From Egicoccus sp. AB-alg6-2 (GTDB lineage Bacteria > Actinomycetota > Nitriliruptoria > Nitriliruptorales > Nitriliruptoraceae), in assembly GCF_041821025.1 (NCBI RefSeq), contig NZ_JBGUAY010000001.1, forward strand, positions 372,001 to 436,000: 64,000 nt of DNA. The letters run 5' to 3'. The position numbers and the translations under genes were made by a program. Below are positions 2,415-29,206 of this stretch, piece after piece; position 1 is the stretch's first letter, and the number at the start of each line of letters is the position of its first letter. A model generated the notes under the pieces. That model did not search any database. It saw nothing but the letters and a program-made list of their open reading frames with translations, and was not told where the DNA came from.

Positions 2415-2921
2415 TCAAGGGACCTCGTCGCTGCTGGTGCCGGTGGTCGGCTCGGGTGTCGGGCGCAGGCGTGCGAGATCCGGCGGGAGCACGAACGTCC
2501 CCGCGTCGAGGTCGGCGTCGAGCAGGGCGAGGGCCGCGAAGGACGTCGTCGACAGCTGCAGCAGCAGCGCCTGCTGCGCGCGGGTCCACGACACGTGCAC
2601 GGCGCACACGTCGTCCCACCGGCACGGACCACCGCGCATCACACACTCGCCCGCGGTCGGGTCGCCCTCGGTGGCCTCGATCACGTCAAGCATCGAGATG
2701 GCCGATGCGGCGCGCGCCAATGCGTAGCCACCCCGCGGGCCCGCGACCGAGGTGACGATCCGACTGCGCACCAGTTGGGCCATGATCTGGGGCAGATAGC
2801 CGCCCGGGATGCTCATCGCCGTCGCGAGTTCCCTGGTCTTGTGCCGACGTTCCGGCGCACGCGCGAGCGCCAGCGTGGCGCGGATGGCGTAGTCGGCGCG
2901 GCGGCCCAAGGTCAGCTCCAT
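2415..2921 (-). CDS. Rrf2-family transcriptional regulator, probable Fe-S sensor
   Basis: A 168-residue protein with the Rrf2 winged helix at residues 1-80 (LGRRADYAIRATLALA, then the recognition region IPGGYLPQIMAQLV). Three cysteines follow: C93, C100 and C106, spacing C-x6-C-x5-C, in the loop that holds a [2Fe-2S] or [4Fe-4S] cluster in IscR, NsrR and RsrR. The gene is divergent from nosZ, so the natural inference is that it senses NO, oxygen or redox state and controls the N2O reductase genes. A -10-like TACGGT lies only 8 nt before the ATG on the minus strand and no Shine-Dalgarno is seen, so the mRNA may be leaderless. NsrR-like is the best guess, but the cysteine spacing is not the textbook one. 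Confidence 0.82.
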   Translation of the reverse strand: MELTLGRRADYAIRATLALARAPERRHKTRELATAMSIPGGYLPQIMAQLVRSRIVTSVAGPRGGYALARAASAISMLDVIEATEGDPTAGECVMRGGPCRWDDVCAVHVSWTRAQQALLLQLSTTSFAALALLDADLDAGTFVLPPDLARLRPTPEPTTGTSSDEVP

Positions 2922-3111: not shown

Positions 3112-5109
3112 ATGAAGACAAAAGGACTTCCGTACCTCGCCCTGGCCGGCACGCTCGTCGCGGGGCTCGCACTGGGGGCGGTCGGTACCCGGCTCGGCTC
3201 CGACACCTCGATCGGCGGCACGTTGGCCGCCGCATCGGCGGCGCGCGGGTTGACGGGCGAACAGGCCGAGGCCGCCCTGTCGACGTTCGTCGCGCCGGGC
3301 GAGCACGACGACTACCTGATGTTCGCCTCCGGCGGGCATTCGGGGCAGGTGCACGTCGTCGGCATTCCGTCGATGCAACTGCTCAAGACCATTCCGGTGT
3401 TCACGCCGGACTCGTGGGCCGGCTACGGCTACGGGGCCGACTGGGGCGAACAGATCCTCGAGCAGGGCAGCGACCCGAACAAGAACGAAGCGCTGCGCTG
3501 GGGCGACGCCCACCACCCCGCCCTGTCCGAGACCGACGGTGACTACGACGGCCGGTGGCTGTACATCAACGACCGCGCCAACGGGCGCATCGCCATGGTC
3601 GACCTGCGCGACTTCAAGACCAAGCAGATCCTCGACCTGCCCAACCTGCAGAGCTCGCACGGCGGGGTGTTCACCACGCCGGACACCGAGTACGTCCACA
3701 TCTCCGCCAAGACGCCGACGCCGGTGTGGAGCGAGAGCGGCTACGCCGACCTCGCCGACTACCAGGAAGCGTTCCGTGGCATGTCGACCTGGGTCCCCGT
3801 GAACCAGGAGACGGGCCGGATGGAGCTCGACGGCGGCTTCCAGATCGAGCTGCCGCCCTACAACCAGGACCTGGCCGACGTCGGCAAGGGCGCCAGCGAC
3901 GGGTGGGCGTTCCTGAACTCCTACAACATCGAGATGGCGACGGGCGGGACCCTCGAGGGTGACGCTCCGTTGGAGACCGGTGCGATCGCGAGCGACCACG
4001 ACTACCTCCACATCATCAACTGGCACAAGGCCGCCGAGGTCGTGGCCGACGGCAAGTACGTCGAGCACAACGGCATGCGCGTCATTCCACTCGACACGGC
4101 CATCGAGGAGGGGCTGCTCTACTTCGCCCCCGAGCCGCGCAACCCGCACGGCGTCGACGTGCAGCCCGGCGGCGAGTACATCAGCGTCTCCGGCAAGCTC
4201 GACCCGAGTGCGATCGTGTACTCGTTCGAGAAGATCCAGGACGCCATCGCCAGCGAGGACTTCGTCGGCACCGACGTCTACGGGGTCCCGATCCTGGACT
4301 TCGACGCGGTCGTCGAGGCGCAGGTCGAGCTCGGCGGCGGTCCGCTGCACACCCAGTTCGACGGCAACGGCTACGCCTACACGAGCCTGTTCGTCGAGTC
4401 GGCGATCGCGAAGTGGGCGCTCGACGCCCCGGCCGGCGGCGAGGAGCCGTGGACGCTGGTGGACAAGATCGACGTGCACTACAGCGTCGGCCACCTCGCC
4501 ATGGCGCACGGCGACACCTCCGAGCCGCACGGCAACTGGCTCGTCTCGCTCAACAAGCTGTCCGTCGACCGCCACCAGCCGGTCGGGACCCTGCATCCGC
4601 AGAACTTCCAGCTGATCGGCGTCGACGGCGAGAAGCCCAAGCTGCTCAAGGACATGCCGGTCGGCTTCGGCGAGCCCCACTACGCGCAGATCATGTCCCG
4701 GGAGCGCATCAAGGACAGCGTCTGGACCACCTACCCAGCCGGTACCGACCTGCTGACGATGGAACGGTCCGAGCACGCCGTCGCGGCGGGCGAGGAACGG
4801 ATCGAGGAGGTGGACGGGGAGCTGCACGTCTACGCGACCGCGAAGCGCAGCCACTTCGTCCCCGACGTGATCCGGGCCAAGGAGGGGCAGAAGGTCGTGG
4901 TGCACCTGACCTCGGTCGAGGAGGCCCCCGACATCACCCACGGGTTCGCCATCCCGGCCTACAACATCCAGGCCAGCCTGGACCCGGGTGAGACGGTCAC
5001 GATGGAGTTCGAGGCCTCCCGCACCGGCAGCTTCGGCTTCTACTGCACCGAGTTCTGCTCGGCGCTGCACCTCGAGATGCAGGGCTGGCTGCTGGTCGAG
5101 CCCGCCTGA
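3112..5109 (+). CDS. nosZ: Nitrous oxide reductase, clade II (Sec-type)
   Basis: This 665-residue periplasmic copper enzyme reduces N2O to N2, the last step of denitrification. Residues 5-28 form a hydrophobic signal or anchor segment with no twin-arginine motif, the mark of clade II enzymes. A seven-bladed propeller follows with the seven CuZ histidines: H134 and H135 (DAHHPALSET), H183, H346 (NPHGVDV), H413 (GPLHTQF), H461 (YSVGH) and H523 (GEPHYAQ). The C-terminal cupredoxin domain carries the CuA site: H610, then C645-x3-C649-x3-H653-x2-M656. All ligands are intact, so the enzyme should be active. GGAG precedes the ATG. It heads a gene run that continues through the cupredoxin, nosD fusion, nosF and nosY. 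Confidence 0.97.
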   Translation: MKTKGLPYLALAGTLVAGLALGAVGTRLGSDTSIGGTLAAASAARGLTGEQAEAALSTFVAPGEHDDYLMFASGGHSGQVHVVGIPSMQLLKTIPVFTPDSWAGYGYGADWGEQILEQGSDPNKNEALRWGDAHHPALSETDGDYDGRWLYINDRANGRIAMVDLRDFKTKQILDLPNLQSSHGGVFTTPDTEYVHISAKTPTPVWSESGYADLADYQEAFRGMSTWVPVNQETGRMELDGGFQIELPPYNQDLADVGKGASDGWAFLNSYNIEMATGGTLEGDAPLETGAIASDHDYLHIINWHKAAEVVADGKYVEHNGMRVIPLDTAIEEGLLYFAPEPRNPHGVDVQPGGEYISVSGKLDPSAIVYSFEKIQDAIASEDFVGTDVYGVPILDFDAVVEAQVELGGGPLHTQFDGNGYAYTSLFVESAIAKWALDAPAGGEEPWTLVDKIDVHYSVGHLAMAHGDTSEPHGNWLVSLNKLSVDRHQPVGTLHPQNFQLIGVDGEKPKLLKDMPVGFGEPHYAQIMSRERIKDSVWTTYPAGTDLLTMERSEHAVAAGEERIEEVDGELHVYATAKRSHFVPDVIRAKEGQKVVVHLTSVEEAPDITHGFAIPAYNIQASLDPGETVTMEFEASRTGSFGFYCTEFCSALHLEMQGWLLVEPA

Positions 5110-5198: not shown

Positions 5199-5585
5199 AT
5201 GCGTACCACCCTCACCGCCTCGATCCTGTTGGCGGCCGCGATCGGCGTGACGGCCTGCGGCGGCGGATCGGAGCCACAGCCCGCCGGCGCCACGGCCGAA
5301 GCCGCCGCGGAGGCCGGCGTGACCATCACCGCCAACGAGTTCGCCTTCGAGCCGGGCGACTTCTCGCTCCCGGCGGACGCGGACACCGAGCTCACGCTGA
5401 AGAACACCGGCGTGGTCGAGCACGACATCGTCGTCGAGGAGCTCGACGACCGTGAGCTGGTCTTCGCCGCTGCGGGCGAGACGACCACCGAGACCGTCTC
5501 GGTGCCGGCCGGGACCTACACCTTCTACTGCTCCATCCCCGGACACCGCGCCGGCGGCATGGAAGGCACGTTGACCGTCGAATGA
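5199..5585 (+). CDS. Cupredoxin lipoprotein (type 1 copper), probable NosZ electron carrier
   Basis: A 128-residue exported lipoprotein with signal peptide and lipobox VTAC (C20 lipidated). After an Ala/Glu-rich tether comes a plastocyanin-like domain with all four type 1 copper ligands: H75 (VVEHDIVV), then C111, H116 and M121 in the C-x4-H-x4-M loop CSIPGHRAGGM. Its place between nosZ and nosD suggests it passes electrons from the respiratory chain to NosZ on the outer face of the membrane, or delivers copper. The first role is more likely given a complete type 1 site. It ends in an ATGA overlap with the next gene. Family firm; partner inferred. Confidence 0.86.
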   Translation: MRTTLTASILLAAAIGVTACGGGSEPQPAGATAEAAAEAGVTITANEFAFEPGDFSLPADADTELTLKNTGVVEHDIVVEELDDRELVFAAAGETTTETVSVPAGTYTFYCSIPGHRAGGMEGTLTVE

Positions 5586-7966
5586 CGGCCGATGCCCCGA
5601 TCCCACCACCCCGAACGGGGGCTCCGATGCCGAACACGTCGTCCAACGGTTCACCCGACGAACCGCGTGACGGAATCGAGACCGGGCGAGGGCGCCGCGG
5701 CGCCCTCGCCGGGGTCGGCGCGCTCGCGACCCTGCTCGTCGCCGCGGGGTGGTTCCTGCCGGTCTGGCAGACCCGGCTGTACGCGCCGCAGTACCCGGGC
5801 GGCCTGACGACGATCGCCTACGGCCACCACATGGCCGGGGACATCGACGAGGTCAACATCCTCAACCACTACGTCGGTCTCGGGATGTACGACCCGTCGA
5901 TGGTTCCCGAGATGCGCCTGTGGCCGGTGGCGCTCGGGGTGGCCCTGCTGTCCGTGGTGGTGGCACTCCGGCTCCGCCCGCGCCTGCCCGGCCGGCTCGC
6001 CGCCGCCTACCTGTGGCTGCTGCCGGTCGGCGTGCTGGCCGTGATCCAGTTCCGGCTGCACCAGTTCGGCCACGACATCACGCCGGGAGCCGCGTTCCGG
6101 CTCGACCCGTTCACCCCGCGGGTGGTCGGCAGGACGACGGTGTGGAACTTCGAGACCTGGTCATGGCCCGGCACGGGCCTGCTCGCGATCGTGGCCGCCG
6201 CCGGGCTCGTCACCTTCGGTCCACGTCTGCTGGCCCCTCGCCGGAGGTCGCCACGTGCCGCGACGGTCGTCGTCGCGATCGCCACGTCGGCGCTCGCGCT
6301 GGCCGCACCGGCAGCACTCGCCGCCGACCACGACGCGCACCACGGCCATCACGGGCACACGACGTCGGAGCCAGCGGCCGGTGACGAGGTCGACGGCCAC
6401 CACGGGCACGTGGACCCGGACGGGACGCTCGGTCCGACGATCGGCCCCGAGCACCACGCGGCGATGCCCAGCATCGTCGAGCACCCGCCCGCGGGCGACC
6501 TGGCCGACGTCCTGGCCGCGGCCCAGCCGGGTGAGGTCGTGCGTCTGCCCGCCGGCACCTACCGCGGCCCGGTGGTCATCGACCGGCCCGTCGTCATCGA
6601 GGGCGAAGGTCTGCCGATCATCGAGGGCAACGGCGATGGCAGCGTCATCACCGTGCGGGCCCCCGGCACCGTGATCCGGGGCGTGGTCGTCCGCGGCTCG
6701 GGGCCCGGACCGACCGGCGACCCCGCCGGCATCCGCATCGAGGCGGACGACATCACCGTCGAGGGTGCGGTCCTGCTCCACAACTACGTCGGAATCGCCG
6801 TCGACACCGCCGCCGCCGTCAAGTTGCTCGACAACCACGTCCACGGTCGTGCCGCCGCCCGGATCGTCGACGAGGACCACGCGGTCGCGACGGACGAGGA
6901 CGAGGGTCACGCGGGCGCCGAAGGCCACGCCGGACATGCCACCCACGCGGAGCGCGATGCTCACTCGGGGCACGAAGCCCACGCGAGACACGCCACCCCC
7001 GCGGAGCACGGCACGCACGTGATGGACGCCGCGAGCAGCGGTCCCGGCCGCGGCGACGGCATCTGGTTGCACGACGTCGACCACATCGTCGTCCGCGGCA
7101 ACCACGTCGTGCACGTGCGCGACGGGGTGTACGTCTCGTTCGGCGCCGGGGCGCTGATCGACGGCAACCACGTGCAGCACAGCCGCTACGCCCTGCACAC
7201 GATGTTCGCCCGCGAGATGTCGGTGGTCCAGAACCACTTCGTCGACAACCTGTCCGGGCTGGTGCTGATGTACGGGGGCGACCTGCTGCTGCTGCGCAAC
7301 CACGTCGAGGGCAGCACCAGCGCCTCCACCGGCTTCGGCGTCCTGCTCAAGGACGTCGTGGGCGTCGAGGCAACCCAGAACCTGCTGGTCGACAACCGGG
7401 TCGGCCTGCACCTCGACGGGCCCAACGAGACCGCCGAGAACCTCTTCATGGCGAACACGGTGGCTCGCAACTCGGTCGGCGTGCACGCCCTGCCCTCGGC
7501 ACGTGCCACCTTCGGCGCCAACAGCTTCGCCGACAACGCCGTCCAGGTGGCCGCGACCAAGCTGCCTCGGCTCGAGTGGGCGTCGCGTGGCTGGGGCAAC
7601 TACTGGAGCTCCTACCGCGGCTACGACCGCGGCGACGGCAAGGGCGCCGTGCCCCACACCGAGGGTGGCGTCGTGGACCGGTTGCTGCTGCGCCATCCCG
7701 AACTCGCCGCGATCGCCGACGGTCCTGGGCTGCGTCTGCTGCGGGCGATCGAGGAGCGGTGGGGAAGCCGCCAACCGGTCGTGGTCGACCCCGCGCCGCT
7801 GACGGTGCCGCTGTCACCGCCGCTGCCCGTCTCCGACGAACGTCCCCTGCACCCCGGTGCCGGGCTGGCCGTGGCGTTCGTGCTCGTGCTGCCCACCGTC
7901 GGCCTGTCCTGGCGTCACCGACGCCGTTCCCTGCGTAGGAGCCGTACCCGTGTCGCCCTCGCCTGA
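5582..7966 (+). CDS. nosD: NosD-type copper-maturation protein fused to an N-terminal four-helix membrane domain
   Basis: At 794 residues this is far longer than ordinary NosD (about 400-450). Order: cytoplasmic tail; membrane helices near 41-60, 114-130, 143-157 and 196-212; a second signal-like helix 227-248; a His-rich stretch (249-301); beta-helix repeats of the CASH/NosD type (about 305-420 and 487-670); a second His-rich insert (432-479); the NosD ending WGNYWSSYRGYDRGDG near 671; and a C-terminal helix 761-777. NosD helps NosF and NosY supply sulfur or copper for the CuZ centre. The N-terminal domain has motifs LYAPQYPGGL and NILNHYVGL and sits where clade II clusters place nosB, so a NosB-NosD fusion is the best reading. 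It overlaps the upstream stop by 4 nt. Confidence 0.88.
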   Translation: MTADAPIPPPRTGAPMPNTSSNGSPDEPRDGIETGRGRRGALAGVGALATLLVAAGWFLPVWQTRLYAPQYPGGLTTIAYGHHMAGDIDEVNILNHYVGLGMYDPSMVPEMRLWPVALGVALLSVVVALRLRPRLPGRLAAAYLWLLPVGVLAVIQFRLHQFGHDITPGAAFRLDPFTPRVVGRTTVWNFETWSWPGTGLLAIVAAAGLVTFGPRLLAPRRRSPRAATVVVAIATSALALAAPAALAADHDAHHGHHGHTTSEPAAGDEVDGHHGHVDPDGTLGPTIGPEHHAAMPSIVEHPPAGDLADVLAAAQPGEVVRLPAGTYRGPVVIDRPVVIEGEGLPIIEGNGDGSVITVRAPGTVIRGVVVRGSGPGPTGDPAGIRIEADDITVEGAVLLHNYVGIAVDTAAAVKLLDNHVHGRAAARIVDEDHAVATDEDEGHAGAEGHAGHATHAERDAHSGHEAHARHATPAEHGTHVMDAASSGPGRGDGIWLHDVDHIVVRGNHVVHVRDGVYVSFGAGALIDGNHVQHSRYALHTMFAREMSVVQNHFVDNLSGLVLMYGGDLLLLRNHVEGSTSASTGFGVLLKDVVGVEATQNLLVDNRVGLHLDGPNETAENLFMANTVARNSVGVHALPSARATFGANSFADNAVQVAATKLPRLEWASRGWGNYWSSYRGYDRGDGKGAVPHTEGGVVDRLLLRHPELAAIADGPGLRLLRAIEERWGSRQPVVVDPAPLTVPLSPPLPVSDERPLHPGAGLAVAFVLVLPTVGLSWRHRRRSLRRSRTRVALA

Positions 7967-8606
7967 ACCTCCCCGCCTGCGTGTCCGCGGCCTGACCAAG
8001 CGGTTCGGCGCGTACACCGTCCTCGACCACGTCGACCTCGACGTGGAGCCGGGCAGCATCGTCCTGCTCACCGGCAACAACGGCAGCGGGAAGACGACCC
8101 TGTTGCGGTGCGTCGCCGGCCTCGCAAGAGCCCGTGGCGACATCGAGGTGGACGGTCGTCCGCTGACGGCGGATCCCGCCAGCCGCCGTGCCGTCGGCTA
8201 CCTGCCCCAGTCGGTCGGCCTGCCGGCATGGGCCACGGGCGACGAGGTCCTCGCCCTGTTCGCGGGGCTGCGCGGCGAAGCGGTCGCGGCGTTCCCGCTG
8301 CCGGACGGGTTCCTGCCGCCCATGGACCGGCCGCTGGGCACCCTCTCGGGTGGACAGCGCCAGCGCCTCGCCTTCGCGGTCGCACTGCTCGGGCAGCCGC
8401 GACTGCTGCTGCTCGACGAGCCGGCCGCCAACCTCGACGACGACGGCCGCGCACTGCTCGGTGCGCTGCTGCGCACCGTGCGTGACGCGGGCGCGAGCGT
8501 CGTCGTCGCCGCACCGTCCCCGGGCGACCTCGCCGGTCTTCCCGACCGGCAGGTGCGGTTGTCCCAGGGACGGATCGAGCGACAACTCCAGGAGATCGTC
8601 CGATGA
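7950..8606 (+). CDS. nosF: ABC transporter ATPase of the NosFY complex
   Basis: A 218-residue ATPase with Walker A GNNGSGKTT, signature LSGGQRQRL and Walker B LLLLDEPAANLD. It pairs with NosY and works with NosD in assembling the CuZ site of NosZ. I chose the GTG at 7950, since AGGAG stands 7 nt upstream and the protein then starts just before the first strand (RLRVRGLTKRFG). The start lies inside the end of nosD, giving a 17-nt overlap, and the stop overlaps nosY by 4 nt, so the genes are translationally coupled. It is shorter than typical NosF (about 300), lacking the C-terminal extension. Confidence 0.9.
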   Translation: MSPSPEPPRLRVRGLTKRFGAYTVLDHVDLDVEPGSIVLLTGNNGSGKTTLLRCVAGLARARGDIEVDGRPLTADPASRRAVGYLPQSVGLPAWATGDEVLALFAGLRGEAVAAFPLPDGFLPPMDRPLGTLSGGQRQRLAFAVALLGQPRLLLLDEPAANLDDDGRALLGALLRTVRDAGASVVVAAPSPGDLAGLPDRQVRLSQGRIERQLQEIVR

Positions 8607-9436
8607 GCATCGCAGGTGCTTCTGTTCTCCGCCTCGCCGCCTTCGAAGTACGCGGGGCGGCGCGGACCCGCTGGGTCGCCATCGGCGGGGGGCTGTTCGC
8701 GCTCGCCGCGGCGGCCGTCGCCCTGGCCGGGCTGCGCTCGCTGTCCGCGCTCGGGTTGGCAGGCGCCGGCGCGGCGACCGACGCGCTCGTCCACCTCGCC
8801 CTCCTGTTGCCGCCGCTGATCGGGCTGCTGCTGGGCGCCGGCAGCCTCGCCCGCGACCGGGAGCGGGGAATGCTGGCGCTGCTCGCGACCCAGCCGCTGC
8901 GTCGGGGAGCGCTCCCACTGGCGGCGTTCGCCGGGGCCGTGCTGGCCAGCTGGGCGGTCGTCGCACTCGGGCTCGGTGTCGCGACGGTCGTCATCGCGGG
9001 GGTGATGACGGCGGCGGACCTGGTGGCCCTCGGCGGCGTCCTCGCCGTCAGCCTGGCCGCGACGGCGACGGCCGTCGCTCTGGGTGTGCTGCTGTCCGCG
9101 GCGACCAGCACCCATCACCAGGCGACGGCGGCCGCGGCGTCGCTGTGGCTGTTCCTCGCCCTCGGCATGGACCTGTTGCTGGCCGGAGCCGCTCCCGGGC
9201 TGCAGTTCGGACCGGCCGGCCTGCTGGCCGCGGTCCTGCTCAATCCCCTGGAGGCTGCGCGGGTGCTGGCGGTGATGGTCCTGGGCGACGGCACGTCGCT
9301 CGGCACGTTCGGCGCGTACCTCGCCGACCGGTTCGGGGACGCCGGGGCGCTTCGGCTGCTGACCGGGTGCCTGGCCGCCTGGATCGTCGCGCCGCTGCTG
9401 CTGGCGTGGCGGATCACGACCCGTCGGGACGTGTGA
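8603..9436 (+). CDS. nosY: ABC transporter permease of the NosFY complex
   Basis: A 277-residue membrane protein with about six helices (near 25-50, 63-85, 105-130, 135-160, 172-200 and 250-270). The segment LLGAGSLARDRERGMLALLATQPLRRG between helices 2 and 3 is the coupling region typical of NosY/ABC-2 permeases. It starts with an ATGA overlap on nosF. It is the last gene of the nos run. No nosL or nosR follows; the next gene is on the opposite strand. Function as the NosY partner is inferred from position and family. Confidence 0.88.
   Translation: MSIAGASVLRLAAFEVRGAARTRWVAIGGGLFALAAAAVALAGLRSLSALGLAGAGAATDALVHLALLLPPLIGLLLGAGSLARDRERGMLALLATQPLRRGALPLAAFAGAVLASWAVVALGLGVATVVIAGVMTAADLVALGGVLAVSLAATATAVALGVLLSAATSTHHQATAAAASLWLFLALGMDLLLAGAAPGLQFGPAGLLAAVLLNPLEAARVLAVMVLGDGTSLGTFGAYLADRFGDAGALRLLTGCLAAWIVAPLLLAWRITTRRDV

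Positions 9437-27172: not shown

Positions 27173-29206
<2,034 letters not shown>

Follow-up and report, generated by a model that had tools for sequence, protein, structure and literature searches.

The nosD gene of Egicoccus sp. AB-alg6-2 is, on the evidence of sequence, almost certainly fused in frame to nosB: a single open reading frame of 794 residues carries NosB followed by NosD, with the retained signal sequence of NosD forming a fifth transmembrane segment (TM5) between them, and the same joining recurs in other genomes. The window analysed here, a stretch of 64,000 nucleotides from a 3.7 Mb, 98% complete genome whose relatives are Nitriliruptoria (Actinomycetota), contains a clade II nos operon in the order nosZ, cupredoxin, nosBD, nosF and nosY (Table 1). 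Overlaps of a few bases occur between several of these genes; the fusion gene and the cupredoxin gene share 4 nt. NosZ, scoring above the TIGR04246 cut-off, and NosB are each present in single copy in the genome, and NosL was found neither there nor in 12 related genomes. The cupredoxin encoded between nosZ and nosBD is a possible candidate electron carrier or donor for NosZ. Elsewhere in the window, an ORF on the minus strand (27173-29206) was recognised by eye as resembling a membrane-bound proton pyrophosphatase. A first-pass annotation had described the 794-residue ORF as a membrane domain joined to NosD and a C-terminal anchor, in the usual place of nosB yet in one chain with NosD; the ORF, its hydropathy and the Pfam and TIGR04247 matches bear out this architecture, and the two parts share one reading frame between nosZ and nosF.

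Table 1. Features of the nos locus, in window coordinates
Feature	Position	Strand	Basis
Rrf2 regulator, divergent	2415-2921		
nosZ, clade II (Sec-dependent) N2O reductase	3112-5109	+	TIGR04246, 761 bits (cut-off 625)
Cupredoxin (plastocyanin-like), lipoprotein-like N terminus	5199-5585	+	Pfam Cupredoxin_1, Copper-bind
nosB-nosD fusion gene, 794 aa, ATG start	5582-7966	+	ORF, profile matches, relatives, GC3
NosB domain, residues 41-222, four TMs, both conserved loops outside	5702-6247	+	homologues, hydropathy, AF2 model, tree
NosB motif APQYP, residues 68-72, outer loop 1	5783-5797	+	nearly invariant in 76 NosB rows
NosB motif LNHYVG, residues 94-99, outer loop 1	5861-5878	+	N95, H96, Y97, G99 invariant
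NosB motif FGHD (YGHN equivalent), residues 162-165, outer loop 2	6065-6076	+	68 residues past first motif
TM5, retained NosD signal peptide, residues 224-247, predicted cut after A247 (ALA/AD)	6251-6322	+	hydropathy, AxA motif
His-rich linker, residues 248-301, 12 His, disordered	6323-6484	+	pLDDT mostly <50
NosD beta-helix, residues 302-745	6485-7816	+	Pfam NosD, TIGR04247, fold match 7osf/7o0y
His-rich insertion in beta-helix, residues 433-485, 11 His, disordered	6878-7036	+	full-chain model
C-terminal TM anchor of NosD, residues 757-780, Arg-rich tail inside	7850-7921	+	hydropathy, model
nosF, ABC ATPase; start inferred; overlaps fusion gene	7950-8606	+	Pfam ABC_tran, E 6e-27
nosY, ABC-2 permease	8603-9436	+	Pfam ABC2_membrane_2, E 1e-13

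The published signatures of NosB are LNHYIGM and YGHN, spaced 68 residues apart (PMC9697520). In the window protein the corresponding sequences are LNHYVGL (residue 94) and FGHD (residue 162), with the same spacing; the longer motifs LYAPQYPGGL and NILNHYVGL occupy residues 66-75 and 92-100, respectively. Nine residues (P60, W62, Q70, N95, H96, Y97, G99, G183 and F190) are invariant over 76 NosB rows, and these lie mostly within the two outer loops, otherwise at the loop edges. NosB proteins are taken to have four or six TMs, and four were found here by both hydropathy and the AF2 model; the domain is encoded in a clade II nos cluster, between nosZ and the nosD portion. Scanning 84,980 species genomes returned no fewer than 582 relatives; the 80 best were retained, and most of these adjoin nosZ, directly upstream of nosD. 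The NosB alignment takes in homologues from Gemmatimonadota, Bacteroidota, Aquificota and haloarchaea. Homologues labelled "hypothetical" lie between nosZ and nosD on plasmids of Thermomicrobium roseum and of the haloarchaeon Natronococcus occultus, and an unnamed one lies between nosZ and nosL on a Hymenobacter plasmid. A haloarchaeal NosB (L127:4917-5693), also labelled hypothetical, is flanked by a Tat-type nosZ and nosD. In Myxococcota, Planctomycetota and Fibrobacterota clusters (loci L067, L081, L084, L087, L099, L100, L102 and L106), nosB is found ~2-3 kb downstream of nosD.

The N-terminal domain matched no Pfam or NCBIfam model, which might favour an unrelated membrane domain in place of NosB; however, no convincing match was obtained among the 76 NosB homologues either and these collections yielded no curated family for any NosB, so the missing match is uninformative, and the published motifs with their spacing and the ~24-57% identity to proteins encoded beside nosZ or nosD in many phyla make such a domain very improbable. 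The same nos-cluster homologues dispose of the proviso, attached to the first-pass assignment of this domain to NosB, that it might resemble no nos-linked membrane protein. From the motifs, their spacing, the gene place and the nos-cluster homologues in many phyla, the identity of residues 41-222 as NosB is regarded as settled at the sequence level. The domain resembles the clade II NosB of Wolinella and Gemmatimonas in its four TMs, in LNHYxG and YGH 68 residues apart and in its place beside nosZ and before nosD, and differs from them in sharing a chain with NosD. Membership in the MHYT copper domain (PF03707), which 5 of the 76 rows match weakly (best E 0.003), was rejected because MHYT domains have seven TMs and carry three motifs; these matches probably arise via HYxGM, as NHYxGM of NosB resembles the copper-dependent MHYT motif, and the resemblance is just a hint at copper.

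The remainder of the protein matches Pfam NosD (E 2e-28, 99.6 bits against a cut-off of 23.6) and TIGR04247 (E 2e-86); the latter score of 290 bits falls 10 bits under the 300-bit cut-off, probably because of an insertion in the beta-helix. In the full-chain structure prediction suggested with the first-pass annotation, the top Foldseek matches of NosD were 7o0y and 7osf (TMt 0.74-0.77), the linker was disordered and no confident domain arrangement emerged (pTM 0.65). As in NosD of the NosDFY ABC complex (7o0y, 7osf), a right-handed beta-helix is combined with nosF and nosY downstream; the window chain differs in its added N-terminal NosB, its C-terminal TM anchor and its two His-rich disordered stretches. 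In the full-chain AF2 model the disordered, His-rich segments span residues 241-291 and 433-485. Both stretches are likewise present in the fused relative L008 and absent from L032 and L034, and it is possible that they are copper-holding segments in genomes without NosL. The C-terminal anchor is found in fused and separate NosD alike within the same lineages, excluding it as a consequence of fusion, and Gemmatimonadota NosD carry it also, which speaks against a monoderm trait.

The third-position GC content (GC3) is 0.80-1.0 from residue 41 through the C terminus, and this steadiness argues against a frame break. No in-frame ATG, GTG or TTG occurs between residues 204 and 254 of the window ORF, and the NosD signal segment is therefore made only within the fusion. 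The search for the same fusion in other genomes, proposed in the first-pass annotation, yielded 24 further non-redundant loci, such that NosB and NosD share one ORF in 25 of 88 non-redundant NosB loci and are arranged otherwise in 63. The fused loci belong to Actinomycetota, Chloroflexota, Acidobacteriota and Elusimicrobiota. Among evenly drawn NosB-bearing genomes, long open frames were found in 5 of 14 Actinomycetota and 4 of 18 Chloroflexota, and in the window's own class they were found in 4 of 5 NosB-bearing genomes. An artefactual joining of two genes by frameshift error or misassembly, against which the first-pass annotation had warned and which one small error could produce where sister lineages have separate genes with a 4-nt overlap, has next to no probability, because the fusion recurs in 24 other loci from independent assemblies, including the single-contig G010, and GC3 is uniform over the junction. 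No description of a NosB-NosD fusion was found in the literature searched; it is a real and recurrent joining of already known partners.

Other fusions of nos genes were observed. An Elusimicrobia contig (L076:1234-3948) encodes NosB-NosD-NosF in one 905-aa ORF with Pfam NosD and ABC_tran matches, and the "nosD" of the T. roseum plasmid (L125:5509-7857) encodes NosD fused to NosF (ABC ATPase), a separate NosB being encoded just upstream. A 327-aa NosB-NosL fusion in Bacteroidia (L107:6977-7957) is of the same kind as that reported from Flavobacterium; NosB-NosL fusions are known from Dyadobacter and Flavobacterium (PMC9697520). In these, as in the window, NosB is the N-terminal part of a larger maturation protein, but the partner is NosL rather than NosD, and the window genome lacks NosL. 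Replacement of NosL by the fusion was considered and rejected: NosL is also missing from many genomes with separate nosB, and several fused Chloroflexota have it, so there is no association between NosL loss and fusion.

The fused or separate state was mapped on a tree of 89 NosB domains. At least six state changes are required by well-supported branches and ten in the most parsimonious mapping, compared with 22 when the labels are shuffled, and by this tree the fusion is recurrent, through gains, losses or both. Where the genes are separate and nosD lies directly downstream, the two mostly overlap by 4 nt (ATGA or GTGA), with nosD read in another frame and its product carrying a signal peptide of its own at the N terminus. 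A sister pair within Nitriliruptoraceae, in which L033 is separate (GTGA) and L032 is fused with ~40 nt lost at the overlap, provides a view of the transition between the two states. A small indel would be enough for joining, removing the stop and start and turning the NosD signal peptide into TM5.

Hydropathy places the TMs of the NosB domain near residues 41-59, 113-131, 139-157 and 200-218, TM5 near 229-247 and the C-terminal TM near 759-777; clusters of Lys and Arg at residues 29-39, 130-138 and 215-225 indicate that the N terminus, the TM2-TM3 loop and the TM4-TM5 loop are inside. With the latter loop inside, TM5 runs from inside to outside and exports NosD, in agreement with the earlier suggestion that a second signal-like helix, here residues 224-247 with the features of a retained NosD signal sequence, explains how NosD leaves the cell interior. 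TM5 has the features of a signal peptidase I substrate, namely the n-region RRRSPR, the core VVVAIATSALALAAPA and the AxA site ALA/AD. An AxA site follows TM5 in 19 of the 25 fusions (mean 13.2 when the same residues are shuffled, p 0.002, a value that serves only as a guide since the fused rows are related), whereas TM1 and TM3, which cross the membrane in the same direction, have it at their outer ends in 3 and 0 of 25, respectively. Outside one all-fused Chloroflexota clade (L042, L044, L048, L049 and L068) the site is found in 18 of 20 fusions, and within that clade, where the chain may stay whole, in one of five. The site is kept in the window (ALA/AD) and in L008 (AQA/QD) despite differing hydrophobic cores, suggesting selection.

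By this simple-motif prediction, the fused chain is probably cut after Ala247 into NosB and a C-terminally anchored NosD. The ribosome would make NosBD as one chain; NosB would cross the membrane in four passes, its N and C termini both inside, and TM5 would then bring NosD outside, where signal peptidase probably cuts; NosB would remain embedded in the membrane, and NosD would be anchored through the TM at its own C terminus. The fusion would fix the NosB:NosD ratio and ensure co-insertion. A comparable arrangement is that of Bradyrhizobium fbcH, a cytochrome b/c1 precursor cut by signal peptidase, in which a polytopic membrane protein is likewise joined to an exported protein through the signal peptide of the latter, although cutting is demonstrated for fbcH and predicted for NosBD. 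Co-translation followed by cutting is favoured because of this analogy, the retention of the AxA site and the lack of an internal start. The frequent switching between states would also be accounted for, because fused and separate genes would yield almost identical products if the chain is cut.

Alternatively, the chain could remain uncut, with TM5 as a permanent anchor and NosB holding NosD over NosY as a built-in transporter subunit. This would suit the single ORF of the window with no internal start, the decay of the signal peptidase site in the all-fused Chloroflexota clade, the NosB-NosD-NosF chain of L076 and the NosD-NosF of T. roseum, which cannot be two soluble parts. Against it stand the AxA site retained after TM5 in most fusions, the window included, the frequent change of state and the C-terminal TM, which already anchors NosD whether fused or separate, and an uncut chain is considered rather unlikely. 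The first-pass annotation held that the fusion shows joint action of NosB and NosD at the membrane. Together with its recurrence, the fusion is good evidence of a functional link and supports such joint action, without proving that the two stay one chain: the AxA site predicts cutting, the linker is disordered, and the link is not exclusive, given NosB-NosL in Bacteroidota and NosB-NosC2 in the literature.

The AF2 model of the NosB domain (pLDDT 94.5, pTM 0.88) resembles the claudin fold. All 50 Foldseek matches listed are claudin-superfamily proteins or complexes containing one, including claudins, TARP gamma subunits, GSG1L, DUOXA1, LHFPL4/GARLH4 and a designed claudin fold; the best E value is 4e-4 and probabilities are 0.99-1.00, but the TM-scores are 0.3-0.5 and the query is a predicted model. 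A VIA comparison gave Z up to 9.6, with an rmsd of 4.3-5.2 over ~150 residues, and middling Z values of this kind are common for helical models. The predicted NosB fold agrees with the superfamily in the order TM1, outer beta-sheet with a short helix, TM2, TM3, outer strands and TM4, and P-x-W follows TM1 in both. The claudin signature is W-GLW-C-C, and with no Cys in the window protein only P-x-W is held in common; W62 lies near the first Trp of the signature, judging from the VIA range (model 10 versus chain residue 4). NosB thus differs from the superfamily in lacking the Cys pair, in being prokaryotic and in showing no detectable sequence homology, as a profile search of the NosB alignment against PDB sequences found no chain at E values up to 5. 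Because of the TM-scores and the middling Z, the likeness is read as one of predicted fold, not of homology. Claudin-fold proteins are often auxiliary or escort subunits (e.g., TARPs and DUOXA1), which fits a role for NosB beside NosY and NosD.

Papers on NosB, PMC9697520 and PMC11409646 among them, describe it as essential in Wolinella and its function as unknown, perhaps in electron transport, perhaps in copper handling. Fusions found in the loci studied join NosB with NosD, with NosD-NosF (L076) or with NosL (L107), and NosD with NosF (T. roseum); every one of these partners belongs to maturation. This speaks for the copper branch, and NosB probably belongs with NosDFY rather than with electron transport. 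We infer that NosB serves the NosDFY copper-insertion complex as an accessory subunit; it would sit beside NosY and NosD with its predicted claudin-like fold and conserved outer-loop surface (W62, Q70, N95-H96-Y97 and G99) and help the copper loading of NosZ. NosB might instead serve electron transfer to NosZ on the quinol or cytochrome side, the fusion reflecting only gene overlap and equal expression. An electron-transport role is left open in PMC9697520, and NosB-NosC2 fusions, mentioned by Hein et al. as quoted in PMC11409646, point toward it; yet the window protein has no Cys and hence no heme-binding CxxCH, the fusions found here join NosD, NosF and NosL, and nosB lies directly upstream of nosD in most loci, making this role unlikely. 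The explanation as a whole, an in-frame nosB-nosD fusion with a predicted cut and NosB as an accessory in copper loading, is considered moderately probable. More tentatively, NosB may be a prokaryotic claudin-fold escort of NosDFY in bacteria and haloarchaea, whose Asn-His-Tyr loop would help pass copper to NosZ, with the NosB-NosD, NosB-NosL and NosB-NosD-NosF fusions marking the relay partners.

Of the leads, the predicted claudin-like fold is the most surprising; if confirmed, it would place in prokaryotes a fold hitherto known best from animals, and it singles out W62, Q70, N95, H96 and Y97 for mutation. The fused genes also offer natural single-chain NosBD constructs for structure work. 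The strongest use of the fusion would be in placing NosB in NosZ maturation, as its recurrent joining to NosD and to related maturation proteins speaks independently for NosB in copper loading over electron supply.
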